DNA from: Bacteroidota bacterium
GTDB lineage: Bacteria > Bacteroidota > Ignavibacteria > UBA10030 > SZUA-254
Length of the DNA: 36,388 nucleotides
Direction of reading: 5' to 3'
NCBI GenBank assembly: GCA_020056225.1
Contig: JAGVIE010000004.1
Span: forward strand, 1-36,388
Below, in pieces: positions 1 through 36,388 of the stretch. Position numbers and translations under genes: made by a program. The notes beneath the pieces are model-generated. The model ran no database searches. It saw nothing but the letters and a program-made list of their open reading frames with translations, and had not been told where the DNA came from. How positions within the stretch are numbered: the stretch's first letter is position 1; every line of letters starts with the position of its first letter.

Positions 1-92
1 CTTCTTCTTCTGACTTGTTCTGCTTCCATTTCGGACTTCTCCTTTTCTCTAATATACTGGCTTTTCTCTCTGTCCGAAAATTAGGGGGAAGA

Positions 93-890
93 TCAAACCA
101 ACCATGCAACAGGAATGAACAAGACGACATACGGCACACCGAATTTCATCCAGTCTATAAAAGTAATTTGGTTGTATGCTGGATCGCTTCCGAAAGTATT
201 ATTGAGAATACCGAGTGCAATACCATTTGGTGGTGTTCCAATAATCGTCCCAACACCTCCGATAGATGCCGACCAGGCGATGCCTAACATCAAGCCGGTT
301 CCATATTTTGTTTTCCCCGGCTCAGTACCCATTAATGTGAGTACTCCTAAACCAAGTGGAAGCATCATAGCAGCGGTCGCTGTATTTGAAATCCACATAG
401 AGATGAAAGCAGTCGTTATCATCATCCCTAACAAAATACTCCGAGTATCTTCAGCAAGTTTACCTCGCGTGAGCAGCCAAATAGTAAATCTCTTATCGAG
501 TTTCCATTTCTGCATCGCACCTGCAAGTAGAAAACCACCGAGAAATAAATAAATCACAGGATTAGAATAACTGAGCAGGGTATTCTTAATCGTAAACTCG
601 TATTGGCTTACACCATTCACACCTGTTATTTTTAAGATAGGAAACAGAATAGCAGGAAGTAATGCAGTAGCAGGCAGCGGTACAGCTTCGGTTAGCCACC
701 AGATTACCATCAATACAAAAACCGCAAGCAGTGATTGCATCGAGCTTGCAATCGTTGAATAATCAATTTCTAAATTATTCTGAGTTACAAATTGATGTGC
801 TGAATCTTGAAATGTTTGGAATGCAGGTAGAGCAAGTATTACGATGAACAGAATCAAACCGAGAAAGAAACCGATCAGTTTCGAGTTCAT
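93..890 (-). CDS. DASS/SLC13-family sodium:dicarboxylate (or sulfate) symporter, N-terminal half, interrupted
   Basis: This encodes an inner-membrane symporter of the divalent anion:Na+ symporter family, which couples sodium entry to uptake of dicarboxylates or sulfate. The 265 residues are very hydrophobic and carry family motifs: a WWLTEAVPLPATALLP segment near residue 65, the first SNTATAAMMLP (SNT) substrate/sodium motif near residue 170, and a SIGGVGTIIGTPPNG stretch near residue 210. Family members are usually 450-550 residues with a second SNT repeat, so the C-terminal half is missing. The reading frame hits TGA at 93-95, but the two other frames stay open and protein-like below that point (LIFPLIFGQREKP in one), which suggests a frameshift rather than a natural end. 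The remainder would lie left of the window. The substrate cannot be told. It lies 175 bases downstream of ahcY in the same direction. Confidence 0.8.
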   Translation of the reverse strand: MNSKLIGFFLGLILFIVILALPAFQTFQDSAHQFVTQNNLEIDYSTIASSMQSLLAVFVLMVIWWLTEAVPLPATALLPAILFPILKITGVNGVSQYEFTIKNTLLSYSNPVIYLFLGGFLLAGAMQKWKLDKRFTIWLLTRGKLAEDTRSILLGMMITTAFISMWISNTATAAMMLPLGLGVLTLMGTEPGKTKYGTGLMLGIAWSASIGGVGTIIGTPPNGIALGILNNTFGSDPAYNQITFIDWMKFGVPYVVLFIPVAWLV

Positions 891-16676: not shown

Positions 16677-17138
16677 TTATTCCTCAATATCGAAAACATA
16701 TTTGGGATCATACGATACATCATATTTTTTAAGAAACGATATGTACTCTTCTTTAAATGTTCGTTTCCTATGGTGTTCTTGTTGTTCTTTAATATAATGA
16801 ATTACTTCATCCAATTGAGAGTGTGAGTATGAAAAAGCTCCATACCCCTCCTGCCATTGGAATTTTGTTTTGAGGAATATTTTCTCATTGATCCATTTCG
16901 ATGAATTCGCTTTCAGATCGCGGACTAATTCGGATAGTGATATATCAGGTTTCATGCCGATAAGGATATGAATATGATCGGGCATTGTGTTAATGGCGAG
17001 AAGTTTATGATCTTTATTTTGAATTATACCGGCAATGTATTTGTGCAATTCTTCACGCCATTCTTTTTGGATGAGAGATGCTCGCTGTTTAACTGAGAAT
17101 ACAATGTGAATATATAATTGTGTAAATGTATTTGCCAT
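16677..17138 (-). mobile_element. Y1 HUH transposase of the IS200/REP-associated (RAYT) type
   Basis: This is a single-strand DNA transposase of the Y1 (PF01797-like) family, 153 residues long, which is complete for IS200-type TnpA. The HUH metal motif is H55-I-H57 in MPDHIHILIG, and the presumed catalytic tyrosine is Y115 in VIHYIKEQQEHH. WQEGYGAFSYSHSQLDEV is the conserved stretch before it. No accessory TnpB is adjacent. Clear palindromic repeats with the cores CCTAACGG and CCCTACGGGG lie upstream within 300 bases, the arrangement of REP-associated tyrosine transposases, which are domesticated single-copy relatives. The ribosome-binding sequence AGGAG is inside the first palindrome. It could also be a plain IS200 copy; exact ends were not found. 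Confidence 0.9.
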
Positions 17139-26950: not shown

Positions 26951-29900
26951 ATGAATGATACCTCTAAACGCAAGCGCACTGAAGAAACATTAAGTAATCC
27001 AGAATTATTTTTCAGACAAGTCATTGAAAACGCAGGCGGTGTTCCCTTTCAACTTATCTTTGGAAGCTCATTGGGAACAGGTTATTATAAATACATTGGA
27101 ACCGGAATAAAAAATCTCATAGGTGTCCTACCCAATGAATTCACAGAAAAACTTTTTAATAGTCTGGTCGAAGTAGTCAATCCTCTTTTACCTGAAATAC
27201 CTATCGATCCCACCGAGTGCCGTCGCAAAATGGTAAAAGGAGATATCCCTCACTACAAAGCTGATATACTAATTCGATCAACAAAAGGTGAGGCAAAATG
27301 GATTAATGAAAGTTCACTTCCAATCCGCGATGAAAAGACAGGTAAAATAATCGGTGCGCAGGGCATATTAATAGACATTGATAAGCATAAAAAAATTGAA
27401 AAAGAAAAAGAGCAAAATATTTCTTTATTGAGAGCAACTTTGGAATCTACGGCTGATGGTATTCTTGTAGTCGATAGTTCAGGAAAAATATCGGATTTCA
27501 ACAATCAGTTCGCACAAATGTGGCGTATACCTGATGCCATCTTAGCCACACACGACGATAAACAAGCAATTGATTTTGTTTTAGATCAATTAAAAGATCC
27601 TAAAAGTTTTATTTCAAATGTTAAGGATTTATATGCTAATCCCGAGAAAGAAAGTTATGACATGCTTGAATTCAAGGATGGAAGACTTTTCGAGCGTTTC
27701 TCACATCCGCAAAAGATTGCTGGAAAACCTGTAGGCAGAGTGTGGAGTTTCCGCGATATCACCGAGCGCAAGCGGGCGGAAGAAGCCTTGAGAAAAAGCG
27801 AGGAAGAATATAGGGGTTTGACAGAAAACATCAACTTAGGAATTTACAGAAATACCGTTGGACATGAAGGCAAATTCATTGAAGCCAACCCCGCCATCAT
27901 TGGGATGTTTGGGTATAAAAACAAAGAGGAATTCCTGGCTATAAACGTTTCAGACCTGTATCAAAATCCAGAAGACAGGAATATGTTCAATGATAAAATG
28001 CTCAAAGAAGGATTTGTCAGAGGCAAGGAATTGTGGCTGAAAAAGAAAGACGGAAGTCTCTTTGTCGGGTCCGTGTCAGCGGTGGCCGTTAGAGACAAGC
28101 AGGGTCATGTGAAATATTATGATGGAATCATCGACAACATCACCGAGCGCAAGCGGGCCGAGGAGGCACTGAAGGAGAGCGAGATCAAGTATCGTACCCT
28201 AATTGATATGACAGGTACCGGATACCTGATTCTGGACTCGCAAGGCAGGGTTCTGGATGCGAACCAGGAATATGTGCGCCTTAGCGGCCATACCAAACTT
28301 CACGATATCCTTGGAAAGAGCGTCATTGCGTGGACAGCGGAGGGAAGGAAACAACGGAATGCGGAAGCCGTAGCCCAGTGCGCGAAGAATGGTTTCATCA
28401 GGGACTTTGTCACCGAATATGTGGATGGGGGCGGTAAGATAACGCCCATAGAGATCAACGCGTCAGTTGATGGGGAGGGCGAGTCGTTACGCATTGTATC
28501 GCTTTGCCGCGACATTACCGAGCGCAAACGGGTCGGAGAAGCGCTGCGGGAGAGTGAAGAACGGTATCGCTCCCTATTTGATAGAATGATGGATGGTGTA
28601 TATCGCAGCACTCATGAGGGAAAGTTTGTCGATGTTAACGAAGCTATGGTGAAGATGTTTGGGTTTTCAAGCAAAGAAGAAATGCTGAAGGTTGACATCA
28701 AAAAAGAGCTTTACTTCGCCCCCTCAGAAAGAGATAGTCTTTTCTTAGATACCGGACAAGAAAAAATTGAAGTTTTCCGGATGCGTCGGAAAGATGGATC
28801 TGAGATTTGGGTCGAAGATCACGGGCGATATGTACATGACGAACAAGGAAATGTTATATTCCATGAAGGTATATTACGTAACGTAACTGAGCGATTGCGC
28901 AACGAGGTGCTTCAAAATGCTATATACCAAATTTCTCAAGGAGCAGATAAGGCATTTAAACTGGATGACCTTTTTAAATCCGTACATCAAATAATCAGTA
29001 CTGTGATGCCTGCTAAAAATTTCTATATCTCATTGTATGACAAAGAAAAAGACCTTATTAGCTTTCCATATTTTGTCGATGAGGTTGATATATCTCCTCC
29101 ACCGGTTAACCCTGGAAAAGGGTTGACGGCGTATGTCCTCCGTACCAGTAAACCTCTGCTCTGCGACGAAGCCACCGATATGAAATTACGACAACAAGGA
29201 GAAGTCGAACTTGTAGGAGCCCTCTCATCGATTTGGCTCGGTGTACCGTTGATCGTTAGTAATAAAACAATCGGAGTTATGGTTGTACAACATTATTCGG
29301 ATCCCTACGCATATAATGAACAAGATTTACACATGCTTGAATATGTTTCTTCGCAGGTAGCTAGAGCTATTGAACAAAAACGTGCTGAAGAGAAACTTCG
29401 TCAAAGCGAGGAACAGTTCCGCTTAATTTCAGAAAACGTAGCCGATCTGATTGCAGTACTCGATCTTAATGGAAAAAGGTTGTACACAAGCCCGTCGTAC
29501 AAGGATATTCTCGGAGATCCACAATCTCTACGCGGCACCGATTCATTTCAAGAAATTCATCCCGAAGACCGCGACCGGATAAAACAAATTTTTCAAGAAA
29601 CAGTTAAGACTGGAGTTGGAAAACGTGCAGAATACCGTTTCCTACTAAAAAACGGTGCTATCCGACAGATAGAATCGCAGGGAAGCGTTATTAAAGATAA
29701 AGATGGAAAGATATCTCAAATTATAGTTGTTTCTCGTGATGTTACCGAGAAGAAAATACTTGAACTACAATTCTTACGTTCACAACGTATGGAAAGCATC
29801 GGCACGCTTGCAGGAGGGATTGCGCACGATCTCAATAATGTGTTAGCACCCATCGTGATGGCAATCGATATCCTCCGAAAGAAAAATCCTGATAAAACAA

Positions 29901-30901
29901 GTCAACAGATACTGGATTCACTCGAATCCAGTGCCCAGCGTGGGGCAGATATTGTTAAACAAGTCCTGGCATTCGCTCGCGGTATCGAAGGCGATCGCCT
30001 TCTTTTACAACCGAAACACATAATTTCTGAAATTGTCAAGATAATCAAAGAAACCTTTCCAAGATCGATTGATATACGGACGGAAGTTCCAAAAATTTTA
30101 TGGACGATATCTGCCGATCCAACACAAATGCATCAGGTGTTATTAAACGTATGTGTTAATGCACGTGATGCTATGCTTGATGGAGGAAAGTTGACCATTT
30201 CGGCTGAAAATATTTTTATTGATGAAAATTATTCTAAAATGCATAGTGAAGCAAAAGTTGGACCCACTGTTATGATAACAATTTCCGATACCGGCATGGG
30301 TATACCTTCCAAGATACTTGATAAAATCTTTGAACCGTTCTTTACAACAAAAGAAATGGGAAAAGGAACGGGACTTGGATTATCAACCGTTCACGCTATT
30401 GTAAAAAGTCATGGTGGGTTTATCAATGTATATAGCGAAGTAGCTAAGGGAACTACATTTAAAATCTACTTTCCTGCTTCAATGAAAGATCAAGTTACTT
30501 CAGCAGAAATGATTCATCCCACACTGCCGCAAGGAAGCGGTGAACTTGTTCTAATCGTTGATGATGAAGCATCCATTCGTGATATAACAAAATCAACTCT
30601 GGAAGCCAACGGATATAATGTTATGACCGCAAACGATGGAACAGATGCAATCTCACTCTATGCACAAAATAGAGAGATAATTAATGTCGTTATATCTGAT
30701 ATTATGATGCCGGTTATGGATGGTACGGTTACAATTCGTGCTTTACAGAAAATGAATCCTAAAATCAAAATTATTGCTGCGAGTGGTTTGATAACCAGTG
30801 ATGTTAAAAATTTAGGGACTAATGTTCAAGCATTTCTCACAAAACCATTCTCTGCGGAGAAATTGCTTATAACATTACATAAAGTTCTTAGCTCAAAATG
30901 A
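26951..30901 (+). CDS. Multi-PAS/GAF hybrid sensor histidine kinase with C-terminal receiver
   Basis: This large cytoplasmic signal protein has 1316 residues and no clear membrane segment. The order is PAS (about 16-150), PAS (160-280), PAS (285-400), PAS (405-530), PAS (535-655), GAF (655-815), PAS (820-945), dimerisation/phosphoacceptor helix with H959 in GTLAGGIAHDLNNVLAP, HATPase (1065-1180; NARDAM N-box, DTGMGIP G1, GTGLGLSTVHAIV G2) and receiver (1195-1316) with DDE, D1250 in VISDIMMP and K in LTKPF. PAS domains are joined by near-repeated DITERKRAEEAL linkers. Kinase and receiver residues are complete. No DNA-binding output is fused or adjacent, so phosphate probably moves to another protein. 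The fourth PAS is much more GC-rich than the rest. A GGAG box lies eight bases before the ATG. Confidence 0.95.
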   Translation: MNDTSKRKRTEETLSNPELFFRQVIENAGGVPFQLIFGSSLGTGYYKYIGTGIKNLIGVLPNEFTEKLFNSLVEVVNPLLPEIPIDPTECRRKMVKGDIPHYKADILIRSTKGEAKWINESSLPIRDEKTGKIIGAQGILIDIDKHKKIEKEKEQNISLLRATLESTADGILVVDSSGKISDFNNQFAQMWRIPDAILATHDDKQAIDFVLDQLKDPKSFISNVKDLYANPEKESYDMLEFKDGRLFERFSHPQKIAGKPVGRVWSFRDITERKRAEEALRKSEEEYRGLTENINLGIYRNTVGHEGKFIEANPAIIGMFGYKNKEEFLAINVSDLYQNPEDRNMFNDKMLKEGFVRGKELWLKKKDGSLFVGSVSAVAVRDKQGHVKYYDGIIDNITERKRAEEALKESEIKYRTLIDMTGTGYLILDSQGRVLDANQEYVRLSGHTKLHDILGKSVIAWTAEGRKQRNAEAVAQCAKNGFIRDFVTEYVDGGGKITPIEINASVDGEGESLRIVSLCRDITERKRVGEALRESEERYRSLFDRMMDGVYRSTHEGKFVDVNEAMVKMFGFSSKEEMLKVDIKKELYFAPSERDSLFLDTGQEKIEVFRMRRKDGSEIWVEDHGRYVHDEQGNVIFHEGILRNVTERLRNEVLQNAIYQISQGADKAFKLDDLFKSVHQIISTVMPAKNFYISLYDKEKDLISFPYFVDEVDISPPPVNPGKGLTAYVLRTSKPLLCDEATDMKLRQQGEVELVGALSSIWLGVPLIVSNKTIGVMVVQHYSDPYAYNEQDLHMLEYVSSQVARAIEQKRAEEKLRQSEEQFRLISENVADLIAVLDLNGKRLYTSPSYKDILGDPQSLRGTDSFQEIHPEDRDRIKQIFQETVKTGVGKRAEYRFLLKNGAIRQIESQGSVIKDKDGKISQIIVVSRDVTEKKILELQFLRSQRMESIGTLAGGIAHDLNNVLAPIVMAIDILRKKNPDKTSQQILDSLESSAQRGADIVKQVLAFARGIEGDRLLLQPKHIISEIVKIIKETFPRSIDIRTEVPKILWTISADPTQMHQVLLNVCVNARDAMLDGGKLTISAENIFIDENYSKMHSEAKVGPTVMITISDTGMGIPSKILDKIFEPFFTTKEMGKGTGLGLSTVHAIVKSHGGFINVYSEVAKGTTFKIYFPASMKDQVTSAEMIHPTLPQGSGELVLIVDDEASIRDITKSTLEANGYNVMTANDGTDAISLYAQNREIINVVISDIMMPVMDGTVTIRALQKMNPKIKIIAASGLITSDVKNLGTNVQAFLTKPFSAEKLLITLHKVLSSK

Positions 30902-31175: not shown

Positions 31176-33719
31176 ATGAGTATGAAATTTATAAGGGTAC
31201 ACAGAAAATTGGGGAAGGCATTCAAAGATTTGGCAATAATCTTAATCATTGCTGTTATCTTTTTCGTTTTTGCGGTTGTTTTTAATTTCTTTGAAAAATT
31301 GGAAGAATGGCGAAAATATGGTGAGCATTCCCAACTTGATGAAATCGTTTTAGTACTTGTAATATTAGCATTTTCATTCGGTATTTTTTCCTATCGTAGA
31401 TGGCGAGAGCCTAAAAATGAAATTGCTAAATCCGAACATGCAGAAGCAAAGATCAGATTACTGGCTCAAACTGTGGCTTCAGCAAAGGATTGTATCTCCA
31501 TTACGGATACCAATGATAATATCCTCTTTCTAAATGATTCATTTCTTACAACCTATGGATACTCAGACGAAGAATTGTTAGGGAAAAATATTTCAATTAT
31601 CCGTTCTCCCGCAATGAATGCTAAAGTTGCGAACCAAATTCTTCCCAATACTCTTGCCGGAGGTTGGTATGGAGAAGTTATCAACCGTCGCAAAGATGGC
31701 GCTGATTTCCCCGTTGAGCTGTGGACATCAATCGTAAAGAATGAATTAGGAGAAACAGTTGCCTTGGTCGGAGTTGCACGGGATATCACAGACAGCACAC
31801 GTGCCAAAGAAAAATTACTTTATCACAATGAATTCCAAAGAGTTATTACCACTATATCTACAGAATTTATTAAAGTTGACACATTACGGATTGATGAGAC
31901 TATTGAAAAATCGCTCCAGTATCTCGGAGATTTTGTTAAGGTCGACCGTAGTTATGTCTTTTTGTTTTCGGGTGACAGAACGAAGATGGATAATACACAC
32001 GAGTGGTGTGCAGAAGGAATTGAGCCGCAGATAAAAAATCTTAAAGGTCTTCCCGTTGAAGCATTCCCATGGTGGATGCAGATACTTCGACGATTTGAGA
32101 ATATTATCGTTCCTAATGTTAGCGACATGCCAGTTGAAGCCAACGCTGAAAAGGAAATTCTTCAAATGCAAGATATTAAATCGGTCGTCGTTATACCTAT
32201 GGTTTCCAGTAATTTATTGGTCGGCTTTCTCGGTTTCGATTCTGTTCAATTTGAACGCACCTGGACAAACGATGAAGTGAGCCTGCTCAGAATAGTTGGA
32301 ACGATCTTTGCGGATATGATTGAAAAAAGAAAATCGGATGAAGAACTGCGCAGAAAGGAACAGCATCAGGCGCTTGTTATCCAGTCAATACCGATGGTGT
32401 TCTACACAGGTCATGTCTCTCCTGATATGGCAACTACATGGATAAGCGAGCAAGTAGAGCAAATTACAGGTTTTGCACCAAAACAGTTTACAGAGGATAC
32501 AATGTTCTGGCAAAGCCGGCTTCATCCCGATGATCATGATCGAACGTTAGATAAATATTTTTCTGTGCTAAAAGAAAAATACATCCATACAGAATATCGC
32601 TGGCAATGCGCCAACGGATCGTATCGTTGGTTCTCTGATCATATTATTCTTATAACTGATGAACAGGGCAAACCAAAGGAGATCGTTGGAATCTGGAGAG
32701 ATATTACCGAGCGCAAGCAAGCCGATGAAGCGATTCAAAGAAGTGAAGAAAAATATCGTACCCTGGCAGAAGCCTCAGGCGATGCCATCTTCGTCATCGA
32801 TCGGGCGGGATGTCTTGAATACGTTAACGAAATTGGGGCAAGACAGTTGAGGCGGCGACCGGATGAAATCATCGGAAAACAACCGATTGATTTATTTCCT
32901 GGCGAGCTTTCTGAGATACAACAGAACAACATTCAAAGAATTTTTCAAAGTGGTAAAACTCACGATGATGAAAGCCAACTCACGCTTGCGGGTAAAAAGA
33001 TGTGGTTGAGCACCCGGTTCACGCCGATCCGTAATACGGCAGGAGCGGTTGTTGCTGTACTCGGCATTTCACGTGATATCACGGATCGTAAGCGTGCAGA
33101 AATTGCGCTTAGTGAAAACGAGGAACGCTACAGGACGCTTGTCAATACATTGAATGATGGTGTTTTGCTTGTTGACAATGACGATGTTATTGTTTTAGCC
33201 AGTAATAATTTATGTCAAATGTTAGGCTACAGGGAAGAAGAACTGATTGGAAAAGTAGGGTTACAAATTCTTGTCGATGAATATTTTAGAGAGATAATAA
33301 AGGAAAAGAATCGTTTGCGCAAAGATGGTATTGCCGATAGGTATGAAATTCAAGTACTTAAAAAATCAGGTGAACCCATTTGGATAGACGTCAGTGGTGC
33401 TCCGATGAAAGATCGAGAAGGCATAATTTACGGCTCGGTTGCAATTCTTAGCGATATGACTGAACGAAAACAAAGTGAAGAAGAACGGGAAAAACTTGTT
33501 CTTGAGTTACGAGATGCTCTTGCGAATATTAAAACGTTGAGCGGATTGGTACCTATCTGTTCTTCGTGTAAAAAGATTCGAGATGATAAGGGATACTGGG
33601 AACAAGTAGAATCGTACATCATGAAGCATTCAGATGCTATCTTTAGTCATGGATTTTGTCCTGAGTGTACAAAGAAATATATGGATGATTTAAAGAAATT
33701 GACTAAGCCGACAACTTAA
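31176..33719 (+). CDS. Membrane PAS/GAF sensor protein with CxxC...CxxC tail and no kinase domain
   Basis: This is a signal-sensing protein of 847 residues. Two membrane helices (about 18-38 and 52-70) are separated by a short charged loop. Then follow PAS (about 88-210), GAF (215-385), PAS (388-510), PAS (515-640), PAS (645-765), a short helical linker, and an 80-residue tail with C795-x2-C798 in VPICSSCKKIRDDKGYW and C828-x2-C831 in FSHGFCPEC. I know this tail from many PAS proteins of Deltaproteobacteria and related groups; its function is, to my knowledge, not established, but four cysteines in two CxxC pairs suggest zinc. There is no histidine kinase, GGDEF, EAL or HD output. It probably works with a partner, possibly the hybrid kinase encoded just upstream. 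A GGAG box lies nine bases before the ATG. Confidence 0.9.
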   Translation: MSMKFIRVHRKLGKAFKDLAIILIIAVIFFVFAVVFNFFEKLEEWRKYGEHSQLDEIVLVLVILAFSFGIFSYRRWREPKNEIAKSEHAEAKIRLLAQTVASAKDCISITDTNDNILFLNDSFLTTYGYSDEELLGKNISIIRSPAMNAKVANQILPNTLAGGWYGEVINRRKDGADFPVELWTSIVKNELGETVALVGVARDITDSTRAKEKLLYHNEFQRVITTISTEFIKVDTLRIDETIEKSLQYLGDFVKVDRSYVFLFSGDRTKMDNTHEWCAEGIEPQIKNLKGLPVEAFPWWMQILRRFENIIVPNVSDMPVEANAEKEILQMQDIKSVVVIPMVSSNLLVGFLGFDSVQFERTWTNDEVSLLRIVGTIFADMIEKRKSDEELRRKEQHQALVIQSIPMVFYTGHVSPDMATTWISEQVEQITGFAPKQFTEDTMFWQSRLHPDDHDRTLDKYFSVLKEKYIHTEYRWQCANGSYRWFSDHIILITDEQGKPKEIVGIWRDITERKQADEAIQRSEEKYRTLAEASGDAIFVIDRAGCLEYVNEIGARQLRRRPDEIIGKQPIDLFPGELSEIQQNNIQRIFQSGKTHDDESQLTLAGKKMWLSTRFTPIRNTAGAVVAVLGISRDITDRKRAEIALSENEERYRTLVNTLNDGVLLVDNDDVIVLASNNLCQMLGYREEELIGKVGLQILVDEYFREIIKEKNRLRKDGIADRYEIQVLKKSGEPIWIDVSGAPMKDREGIIYGSVAILSDMTERKQSEEEREKLVLELRDALANIKTLSGLVPICSSCKKIRDDKGYWEQVESYIMKHSDAIFSHGFCPECTKKYMDDLKKLTKPTT

Positions 33720-34430: not shown

Positions 34431-34997
34431 GTGCACGATCAAGAGCTACTCAAAAAACTTCAAATTGGCGATGATTCGGCTTTTCGAGAATTATTCGAAT
34501 TATACCACGCTATGGTATTCAACGTTTGCTATCGCATGCTGGGCAGCAAACACGAGGGCGAAGACATTACCCAAGATGTATTCGTGAATGCTTATAAGAC
34601 GCTGAAACACTTCCGCTCAGAATCAAAACTTTCAACATGGCTTTACCGCATCGCTGTGAACCATTGTCTTAATCACCAGGCAAGGAAGAAACGCCATCGG
34701 TGGATTTCCCTTGATATTTTCTCCGATACGGAGAATGAGCAACTCTCAGTGAACACTACAGACGATAGACCCGATATCACGATGGAAAGAAAAGAGACCG
34801 AACAAATAATTCAACATGCAATTAACTCACTCCTGAAGCAGCAGCGTATTTCTCTCATCCTCCATCGGTATGAGGGATTATCATACCAGGAGATCGCGAA
34901 AGTATTAGAATGTTCGGTATCTTCAGTAGAATCGCGCATTTTTAGGGGAAAACAGAATTTGTGCAAAAAATTACTTCCTTACCTAAAAAATCTATGA
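34431..34997 (+). CDS. RNA polymerase sigma factor, ECF subfamily
   Basis: This is a group 4 (extracytoplasmic-function) sigma factor that redirects RNA polymerase to stress promoters. From GTG 34431 it has 188 residues, the usual ECF size; the only longer option is a TTG at 34356, which adds 25 unconserved residues. Region 2 spans about 12-85 (FRELFELYHAMVFNVCYRML, GEDITQDVFVNAYKTLKHF, STWLYRIAVNHCLNH) and region 4 about 125-180 (HRYEGLSYQEIAKVLECSVS and SVESRIFRGKQNL, the helix-turn-helix for the -35 box). There is no anti-sigma-like or C-terminal extension. The next gene encodes a zinc-finger anti-sigma factor, so it is probably held inactive at the membrane until a signal arrives. No Shine-Dalgarno is apparent. 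Confidence 0.94.
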   Translation: MHDQELLKKLQIGDDSAFRELFELYHAMVFNVCYRMLGSKHEGEDITQDVFVNAYKTLKHFRSESKLSTWLYRIAVNHCLNHQARKKRHRWISLDIFSDTENEQLSVNTTDDRPDITMERKETEQIIQHAINSLLKQQRISLILHRYEGLSYQEIAKVLECSVSSVESRIFRGKQNLCKKLLPYLKNL

Positions 34998-35047: not shown

Positions 35048-35515
35048 ATGAGTCACAGAAGTATCCGAAAAAATTTGCTCCTGTACATCGATGGCGGTCT
35101 CGGTGAGAAAGATACGATCGAGGTAAAAGAACACCTCCCTCAATGCCCGCACTGCAGTCAACAGATTACAGTGCTTTCGAAAATCTGGAAAAACGGGACT
35201 GCCGTCGAACATTTACGACCATCACCTTTTATTTGGACCAAGCTCGAAGCACGCATTGCGCAACCTGAAACATCTGGTATTGTTATTCAAAAATATATCC
35301 CCGCTCTCCGTTACTCGGCAGCCATTGTGATGCTCATAATTTCCCTTCTCCTTGGGAATTATTTAGGGAATCTTCCCCAGAGTTCCGTACAACAACCTTC
35401 TGAAGCTACCTCAAACGAATATTTTGCGCGGACATATCACTTAGACTCGTTTGAATTGTCCTCGGACGAGTCGATCGGACAGATCATTGTTCTCACTTCT
35501 TCTGAGAGGAAGTGA
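35048..35515 (+). CDS. Zinc-finger (zf-HC2/ZAS) transmembrane anti-sigma factor
   Basis: This 155-residue protein is predicted to bind and silence the ECF sigma factor encoded 50 bases upstream. The anti-sigma zinc motif H-x3-C-x2-C is exact at H29, C33 and C36 in KEHLPQCPHC. A linker follows, then one membrane helix at about 86-106 (SAAIVMLIISLLLGNYLG), with the remaining 50 residues periplasmic. The helix divides a cytoplasmic sigma-binding part from a periplasmic sensing part. A seven-codon mini-frame at 35031-35051 overlaps its start as ATGA and carries an AAAGG ribosome-binding-like sequence. Its own stop overlaps the next gene's possible GTG start, so the three genes are probably one transcript. 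Confidence 0.9.
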   Translation: MSHRSIRKNLLLYIDGGLGEKDTIEVKEHLPQCPHCSQQITVLSKIWKNGTAVEHLRPSPFIWTKLEARIAQPETSGIVIQKYIPALRYSAAIVMLIISLLLGNYLGNLPQSSVQQPSEATSNEYFARTYHLDSFELSSDESIGQIIVLTSSERK

Positions 35516-36036
35516 AAAAATTTATGAAGAAAAAATGGTTCATAATCACCCTGATTTTTCTAACGGTCGTCAATCTTTCTGCTTTAGGCACATTTGTATA
35601 CCAGCGTTGGTACTGCACGGAGCCAACCTGTGCAATGGATAGTACGGAAGATCATGGGTGCTATATGAAAAAGCACCTTGACATCACGGAAGACCAAATA
35701 AATCGTTTAAACGCAGTTGAGAATTCCTCACGTCCTCTGATTGAAGCCCTGACCATACAAATGAAGGAAAGAAGAATCGAACTGGTCAAGGCATTAATGG
35801 ACAAGAATTCCGACAATGCGAAGATCGAGACGGCATTACGGCAAATCGACTCACTTCAGGCAACGATGCAGAGGCAGATCGTCAAACGTCTTCTTGACGA
35901 AAAGGGAATCCTTACCCCACAACAGCAGGAAAAATTTTTCTCACTCGTCCTTGGACGATTTTGCTTGGAATTAGATAGTACAAAACAAACTCAATGTCAA
36001 CAACATTCTTCAATGAAAGGAGAAACACCGCAGTGA
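35512..36036 (+). CDS. Periplasmic heavy-metal sensor/resistance protein (Metal_resist, CnrX/Spy-like)
   Basis: This 174-residue protein has an N-terminal signal anchor (about 8-27) and a helical periplasmic domain. The body LDITEDQINRLNAVENSS...LTPQQQEKFFSLVLG fits the Metal_resist/CnrX-like hairpin fold, in which LTPEQ motifs open and close a long helical pair. Extra cysteines and histidines stand out: YCTEPTC and HGCYMKKH just after the membrane segment, FC and QCQQH near the end. Two starts are possible: GTG 35512, overlapping the anti-sigma stop, or ATG 35524, four codons on and better spaced from AGAGG. In CnrYXH-type systems the X protein binds metal outside and relieves the anti-sigma factor; the gene order here suggests a similar role, by inference. 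Confidence 0.82.
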   Translation: MKKFMKKKWFIITLIFLTVVNLSALGTFVYQRWYCTEPTCAMDSTEDHGCYMKKHLDITEDQINRLNAVENSSRPLIEALTIQMKERRIELVKALMDKNSDNAKIETALRQIDSLQATMQRQIVKRLLDEKGILTPQQQEKFFSLVLGRFCLELDSTKQTQCQQHSSMKGETPQ

Positions 36037-36388
36037 AAAAAACAATTGTAATTCTATCAATACTGCTCATCGCAGTACTCATGACATCGCTTGTCCTTTA
36101 TGCAGGAGATGAGAAATCAACAAAAAAGGAGACGGCAAAATGTCCGATGAGTGATAAGAAAACCGCATGCACAGATAAAACTGCTAAGAGCGAATGCGCA
36201 GGAATGGATGCATCAAAATCCAAAGATGAAAAATGTGCGAAAGCATGCGCCGATAAAAAAGCAGGCACCGAGTGCAAGCATGATAGCCTAGAATGTAAAG
36301 ATAAGATGGCGAAAGGTGAATGCAAACACGACAGCAAAGAATGTAAAGATAAGATGGCGAAAGGTGAATGCAAACACGACAGCAAAGA
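36033..36388 (+). CDS. Secreted Cys/Lys/His/Asp-rich tandem-repeat protein, 5' part
   Basis: The product is not a recognised family. Starting at GTG 36033, which overlaps the previous stop as GTGA and has GGAG ten bases upstream, the visible 118 residues begin with a Sec signal peptide (MKKTIVILSILLIAVLMTSL, cleavage expected after VLYA near residue 24). The mature part is highly charged, with ten cysteines (37, 46, 55, 68, 72, 81, 88, 97, 104, 113) and no hydrophobic core. From residue 80 it forms 16-residue repeats, ECKHDSKECKDKMAKG, each with two Cys, one His and two Asp. The frame is still open at the window end. Composition and operon context suggest periplasmic metal binding; that is inference. 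Confidence 0.8.
   Translation, partial: MKKTIVILSILLIAVLMTSLVLYAGDEKSTKKETAKCPMSDKKTACTDKTAKSECAGMDASKSKDEKCAKACADKKAGTECKHDSLECKDKMAKGECKHDSKECKDKMAKGECKHDSK
36270..36388 (+). repeat. 48-base tandem repeats coding for ECKHDS...KMAKG
   Basis: Unit 1 is 36270-36317, unit 2 is 36318-36365, and unit 3 begins at 36366 and is cut by the window end. Units 1 and 2 differ at six of 48 bases; units 2 and 3 are identical over the 23 bases seen, suggesting recent amplification. Confidence 0.92.

Follow-up and report, generated by a model that had tools for sequence, protein, structure and literature searches.

The last gene of a contig from a Bacteroidota bacterium (Ignavibacteria; UBA10030; SZUA-254; assembly GCA_020056225.1, contig JAGVIE010000004.1) encodes an exported cysteine-rich repeat protein. 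The window analysed here comprises the whole of this contig, 36,388 nucleotides (C51 in a genome of 3.5 Mb and 62 contigs). The protein represents a real, conserved family of exported Cys-repeat proteins, without a match in Pfam or NCBIfam, and its gene stands in a metal-stress operon. The order sigma factor, anti-sigma factor, CnrX/ZraP-type sensor and Cys protein was kept in three genomes of the family, and the last three operon genes were also present in one genome of another family (G340). The number of repeat units differed between species. The Cys protein is probably, if by no means certainly, the effector of a four-gene metal-stress switch, serving as a metal-induced extracytoplasmic Cys sponge. 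On our best reading it would be metallothionein-like in its job and lie outside the profiled metallothionein families, with metal binding as a putative activity.

An exported protein built from cysteine repeats

The frame is open at position 36388 because the contig stops there. Its visible parts are given below in window coordinates.

36033..36388, + strand: exported Cys-rich repeat protein gene; GTG start; 118 codons visible; cut by the contig end
36033..36104, + strand: Sec-type signal peptide, residues 1-24, cut after LYA; read from the sequence, with a similar N-terminus in both orthologs
36105..36269, + strand: non-repeat mature segment with Cys 37, 46, 55, 68 and 72
36270..36317, + strand: repeat unit 1, ECKHDSLECKDKMAKG
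36318..36365, + strand: repeat unit 2, ECKHDSKECKDKMAKG
36366..36388, + strand: repeat unit 3, 23 bases visible, then the contig end

A first-pass annotation of this DNA had proposed a secreted protein starting at the GTG at 36033 in a frame open to 36388, with ten cysteines in about 94 mature residues and repeats of 48 bases. Each of these features was recovered. On reading, the leader was hydrophobic and ended in ...LVLYA-GDEK; LYAGD was common to both complete orthologs (below). The visible mature part, of 94 residues, contained 10 Cys, 3 His, 11 Asp and 25 Lys. In the 28 other frames of the window taken as genes, cysteine accounted for 86 of 10,928 residues (0.79%), and at that background rate the probability of at least 10 cysteines in 94 residues is 4.5e-9. 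Tandem Repeats Finder reported a sole tandem array in the window (36290-36388, period 48, 2.1 copies, 100% matches); the repeat unit of 48 bases encodes 16 residues, two of them cysteines. Minus-strand frames across the repeat (95-96 aa) were set aside, as they look like a by-product of the repeat.

The gene lies at the end of a metal-sensing operon

Three genes precede the Cys gene on the same strand.

34431..34997, + strand: extracytoplasmic function (ECF) sigma-70 factor, probable GTG start at 34431; Pfam Sigma70_r2 1.6e-18, Sigma70_r4_2 3.5e-18
35048..35515, + strand: membrane anti-sigma factor with an N-terminal zf-HC2 zinc-finger domain (PF13490 1.4e-07, above cut-off)
35524..36036, + strand: membrane-anchored periplasmic metal sensor of the CnrX/CpxP/ZraP kind, by Pfam (alternative GTG start at 35512)

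The order on the one strand was thus ECF sigma factor, zf-HC2 anti-sigma factor, Metal_resist/LTXXQ sensor and Cys protein. The start of the sigma gene was picked by comparison with the orthologs in L007 and L008, and a single hydrophobic stretch was read in the anti-sigma factor. In the window, the start of the Cys gene overlaps the stop of the sensor gene by four bases (GTGA); in two related genomes, G007 and G013, a gap of 16 bases separates them. This metal-sensing operon context, which had not been used in the first-pass annotation, strengthens a metal role for the protein.

The sensor matched Pfam Metal_resist (6.4e-11) and LTXXQ (2.7e-06), both above cut-off. The best match of its profile in the PDB was ZraP (3lay, E 5e-4). 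With an AlphaFold model of the sensor (predicted local distance difference test score, pLDDT, of 57), the leading Foldseek matches were CnrX, CpxP and ZraP, the best being 2y3b (prob 1.00, E 0.05); none was found at E <= 0.001. VIA-align gave Z 8.4 for ZraP (root-mean-square deviation 2.6, 79 residues aligned) and Z 7.0 for CnrX (4.2, 101 residues aligned), values within the range of unrelated helical bundles. The firm part of the predicted assignment is its Pfam membership.

Orthologs and purifying selection on the cysteines

A sensor match at E <= 0.001 was obtained in 13 of 60 related genomes, own genome included, with close orthologs in G007 and G013. Both carry the four operon genes in window order with a complete Cys gene (L007:1050-1496 and L008:1083-1496, both on the - strand). 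The complete proteins are 148 (G007) and 137 (G013) residues long, and a convergent transporter gene follows.

Nine of the ten window cysteines were kept in both orthologs, Cys46 alone being missing from both. Compared with G013, four of the window Cys codons were identical, five silently changed and one replaced. For the whole gene, nonsynonymous divergence (dN) was 0.15-0.26 and synonymous divergence (dS) 1.6-2.6, giving a dN/dS of about 0.1. Two comparisons of the repeat part with the window gene gave dN 0.04-0.09 and dS of about 1.1-1.2, a dN/dS lower than that of the whole gene, with the provisos that the pairing of units went by position, an arbitrary choice for repeats, and that dS above 1 is near saturation. 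Three partitions of this count yielded no dS (saturated). In the signal part, dN was 0.38-0.49. As judged from these codon comparisons, the cysteines of the repeat protein are shown to be conserved under purifying selection. Two outcomes had been named beforehand as speaking against the first interpretation, homologs with an unrelated known function and cysteines that are not conserved. Neither was encountered within the family, but only two cysteines are left in the G340 homolog.

These values also bear on whether the protein could be a neutral or structural Lys/Cys-rich envelope protein, its repeats drifting by slippage, with no part in metal handling. Its low-complexity sequence would suit such a protein, as would the poor single-sequence AlphaFold model of the G013 ortholog (pLDDT 57.6; predicted template modelling score 0.31; short separate helices) and the presence of another low-complexity repeat, KENPKNTA, in the mature part of the G340 protein. 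A dN/dS near 0.1, lower still in the repeat part, the retention of nine out of ten cysteines with several of their codons silently changed, and the conserved place in the operon make this explanation improbable.

The repeat array and its missing 3' end

Units 1 and 2 of the window gene were 88% identical. An exact self-match at offset 48 extended over 51 bases (36290-36340 against 36338-36388) and ran up to the contig end; the longest exact offset self-matches in the two complete orthologs were at most 24 and 13 bases. The last units had been described as identical in DNA, which holds for these 51 bases but not for units 1 and 2 as wholes, and the third unit is visible over 23 bases only. A recent extra copy in the window gene is plausible, resting on the 51 identical bases, and an assembly break inside the array would fit the presence of more identical copies beyond the contig end. 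Mean unit identity was 0.81 within genomes (12 pairs) and 0.82 between genomes (33 pairs). Identity within genomes is no higher than between them, so there was no overall homogenisation of units, and the recent expansion claimed at first is plausible for the window gene but finds no such trace across the family.

Variation in repeat count between relatives, as expected from the first-pass interpretation, was borne out. The G340 protein has one unit, that of G013 three plus part of another and that of G007 four; two units plus 23 bases are visible in the window.

The continuation of the array was sought in the rest of the own genome. The repeat was not found on its other contigs (32-base pattern, up to 3 mismatches), a search that a shorter remnant would escape. 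A protein search of the contigs gave no convincing second copy; a weak match at C43 (E 0.06) contained an internal stop. Nor was the 3' continuation found via the downstream neighbour of the G013 ortholog, which lies on C5 in the own genome. The 96 bases common to the C5 end and the window lie at the window start, not in the Cys gene: window positions 1-96 are identical to the reverse complement of the C5 end (L029), one base in from the tip, a short repeat where both contigs break off.

Sensors of the same kind in other genomes

In the class, the sensor profile gave 45 matches in 37 of 391 genomes at E <= 1e-8. Neighbours were read for 18 of these loci, G340's own among them, and the linker between the membrane helix and the first sensor helix was read at 30 of the 45. 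Of the four sensor matches in G340, three, of similar score, were among the 15 left out of reading. At the six next-best listed loci outside G340 (L043-L048), the next gene encoded an OEP outer-membrane efflux protein in three cases, an HlyD protein in one and a chromate transporter in one; at the sixth locus, L046, where frames were not searched, no recognisable neighbour was seen. The chromate transporter gene (L044:3-1085, - strand; PF02417, 9.5e-73) lies 374 bases beyond a trio of sigma, anti-sigma and Metal_resist-like genes, a possible metal- or oxyanion-responsive chrA operon.

Profile alignment placed 2-4 cysteines in the sensor linker at all four loci with a Cys protein and none at the 18 other loci aligned across that region; eight of the 26 loci without a Cys protein were dropped from this count because their alignment did not cover it. 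Such a pattern might be expected if the Cys protein were an accessory of the sensor, passing metal to or from the Cys/His/Met linker and setting its threshold rather than storing metal in bulk. The G340 protein, with one unit, two cysteines and a CKGHEP tail, would offer little for storage and fits an accessory of this sort. Multiplication of units fits capacity better than one-to-one handover, and the close ancestry common to the four loci could account for the shared linker cysteines, so we regard a purely accessory function as rather unlikely.

Distribution and a distant homolog

Three of the 15 family genomes, own genome included, carry the Cys protein. A search of the class at E <= 0.01 matched 7 of 391 genomes, namely the three family genomes, G340 and three judged non-homologous on reading of their loci: G388 (a multihaem N-terminus), G238 (an exported DKDKDGICDN protein) and G088 (an Arg/Cys-rich frame). 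In the order, 5 of 98 genomes matched at E <= 0.05, the four known carriers and G316 (E 0.044), which was rejected as a homolog when its locus was read. The phylum search matched 6 of 395 genomes at E <= 0.001: G000, G007 and four judged non-homologous (G430, G546, G603 and G686), whose matches lay mostly in the signal peptide. G013 and G340 were not among the phylum matches, and whether they had been sampled there was not checked. The G686 locus (L076:1441-1743) encodes a small exported protein with five cysteines (KSSCPATASKSSCAPESCC) in another context.

Peptide patterns taken from the repeat gave 43 matches in a scan of genome contigs, one of them a relative; the patterns were strict enough to miss any homolog with a single unit, such as the G340 one. 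The 49 pattern matches in viral contigs included no relative, none was found in plasmids (E limit 0.01), and PADLOC gave no match up to E 0.1. Carriage of the Cys gene by mobile elements or phages was accordingly set aside, no relative having been found in viral contigs or plasmids. As far as searched, the protein appears rare and confined to a small lineage.

G340 belongs to another family of the same order. Its anti-sigma gene and sensor gene are followed by a gene for a 97-residue exported protein with two cysteines (AACLEKHAKGECKGHEP); the stretch of its contig stops short of where a sigma gene would come into view. The sensor is 50% identical to that of the window. Placement of the single unit depended on the method, BLAST aligning it near residues 72-81 of the Cys protein and MAFFT onto the repeat. 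This arrangement suggests that the operon place predates the repeat array and that cysteines either became more numerous in the family of the window or were lost in G340. A second sensor-like frame beside the Cys gene of G340 (L035:180-1148, - strand) lies antisense over a frame that reads as MutS-like (624-1259, + strand).

Surroundings of the operon

In the window, a DinB gene adjoins the sigma gene. Directly upstream of the sigma gene in G013 (L030:9451-10692) and G007 (L031:8494-9735), and in the same direction, stands an MgtC/DUF4010 membrane gene that is missing in the window; the assignment was made by Pfam on the G013 gene. Two very large multi-PAS signalling proteins were read at 26951-30901 and 31176-33719 of the window, and frames resembling one or other of them stand upstream of the operon in G013 and G007. 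A frame at 16677-17138 (- strand) has what we take to be a resemblance to IS200-type/REP-associated transposases.

A proposed metal-stress switch with an exported thiol sponge

In the mechanism that we propose, a soft metal in the periplasm would bind the sensor, which has Cys, His and Met in its linker. Release of the sigma factor by the membrane anti-sigma factor would follow, the freed sigma factor would transcribe the operon, and the exported Cys protein would chelate the metal through thiolates. In-frame additions of 48 bases, bringing two cysteines each, would provide more capacity. The Cys protein would fill the place that is held by efflux or chromate-transport genes beside several of the closest other sensors. 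We put forward more tentatively the possibility that this is a periplasmic store tuned by the count of 48-base units, so that the metal tolerance of strains may differ by copy number, and that its partner, a CnrX-type sensor, has acquired Cys ligands to match.

Several observations weigh against a metal sponge. CxC and CxxC were found in none of the four Cys-protein homologs, and the most distant of these, that of G340, has only two cysteines. Histidine is much less conserved than cysteine, being absent from two of the four units of the G007 ortholog; for that reason the His/Asp part of the initial ligand argument is weak. The lack of overall unit homogenisation argues against any strong version of a recent expansion throughout the family. 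More distant sensor loci had assorted neighbours, many of them not metal genes, and a scan of 13 weaker loci (L005, L009-L020) for Cys-rich frames revealed no convincing exported Cys protein. The association of linker cysteines with the Cys protein is not independent, because the same four loci are also closest relatives, and one locus dropped from that count, L061, has two cysteines shortly before the LTxxQ motif by a rougher count. The genome also contains a homolog of VKOR (vitamin K epoxide reductase), which points to an oxidising envelope, where disulfides would be the likely fate of free thiols.

The VKOR homolog is also what might be expected if the Cys repeats formed a sacrificial thiol/disulfide buffer against envelope oxidants, and if thiol oxidation, not metal, were the cue for the zf-HC2 anti-sigma factor or for the sensor with its cysteines. 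Conservation of cysteine without histidine would agree with such a buffer, as would the matches of the RsrA and ChrR anti-sigma models to the window anti-sigma factor, which were weak and far below their cut-offs. Zinc-binding anti-sigma domains include redox sensors (PMC7406223, PMC4598750). The sensor itself is a Metal_resist/LTXXQ protein, however, and of the six listed sensor loci that rank next outside G340, five have efflux or chromate-transport genes alongside; a redox function is in our estimation unlikely, if still to be taken seriously. The preferred reading remains that of a metal-induced sponge.

Comparison with known metal-response and metal-storage systems

The operon resembles CnrYXH/NccYXH of Cupriavidus metallidurans in having genes for an ECF sigma factor, a membrane anti-sigma factor and a Metal_resist/CnrX-type sensor in a row. 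In the cnr system, a sigma factor, a membrane anti-sigma factor and a membrane-anchored periplasmic helical sensor are encoded in one operon, and the output of CnrYXH/NccYXH is efflux of the resistance-nodulation-division (RND) type. The output of the window operon, in contrast, is an exported Cys-repeat protein. The window sensor was matched to the CnrX superfamily by Pfam, by its profile hit to ZraP and, weakly, by fold. CnrX is considered to act through Co/Ni binding (PMC4598750). The anti-sigma factors differ, that of the window being of the zinc-binding zf-HC2 kind whereas CnrY is a class II anti-sigma factor (PMC7406223).

The first-pass annotation had called the protein metallothionein-like. 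Hmmscan turned up no metallothionein model for the window protein (Pfam, NCBIfam up to E 1) or, in Pfam, for its three homologs up to E 0.001. With no profile match and no cluster motifs, it is not filed as a metallothionein, and membership in a profiled metallothionein family is not supported. CxC/CxxC cluster motifs are typical of bacterial metallothioneins, and to our knowledge SmtA/BmtA, PmtA and MymT are made without an export signal. The window protein, by comparison, is exported, longer and repeat-built, without CxC or CxxC. Bacterial metallothioneins (SmtA/BmtA, PmtA, MymT) are described as small and Cys-rich, some of them containing His (PMC10612145).

Bufferins, Buf_EGKCG proteins and oxazolins are exported Cys proteins that bind periplasmic copper, and sigma factors occur in Buf1 clusters; Buf_EGKCG proteins have a Sec signal and 17-residue repeats with two Cys-bearing motifs (PMC12452194). 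The window protein is likewise an exported Cys protein, but its repeat differs, EGKCG is lacking, the operon has no DUF2063 or DoxX partner, and no multinuclear non-haem iron-dependent oxidative enzyme (MNIO) was found in its own genome. The parallel with Buf_EGKCG would be one of functional resemblance only. Were the protein a bufferin-like modified peptide, its cysteines converted to thiooxazoles or related groups that bind periplasmic copper, an MNIO enzyme would be looked for, as it modifies the cysteines throughout this group of peptides, methanobactin included. A search for PF05114 in the own genome and 14 control genomes (the other three genomes with the Cys protein being left out) was positive in two controls and not in the own genome. 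EGKCG is absent from all four homologs, and neither a DUF2063 nor a DoxX gene is among the four operon genes. With no MNIO enzyme found in the own genome and no EGKCG, the protein is not filed as a bufferin, and modification of this kind is highly improbable. Csp1 proteins, likewise exported and rich in Cys, store copper (PMC7558416). They form a rigid four-helix bundle and carry a twin-arginine (Tat) signal, whereas the window protein has a low-complexity, repetitive sequence, a Sec-type signal and no confident fold.

Among the matches listed in a literature search, as titles and the starts of abstracts, no report of an exported Cys-repeat protein in such an operon was found, which is not proof of absence. 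If the proposed switch is correct, a chelation output has been plugged into a sensing module that adjoins efflux genes in related lineages. Few systems are known for bacterial extracytoplasmic thiol-based metal buffering, bufferins and Csp1 among them. The operon, which fits three regulatory genes and that of a predicted repeat-built chelator into about 2 kb, would add a genetically compact, MNIO-free, length-tunable version from an uncultured lineage.
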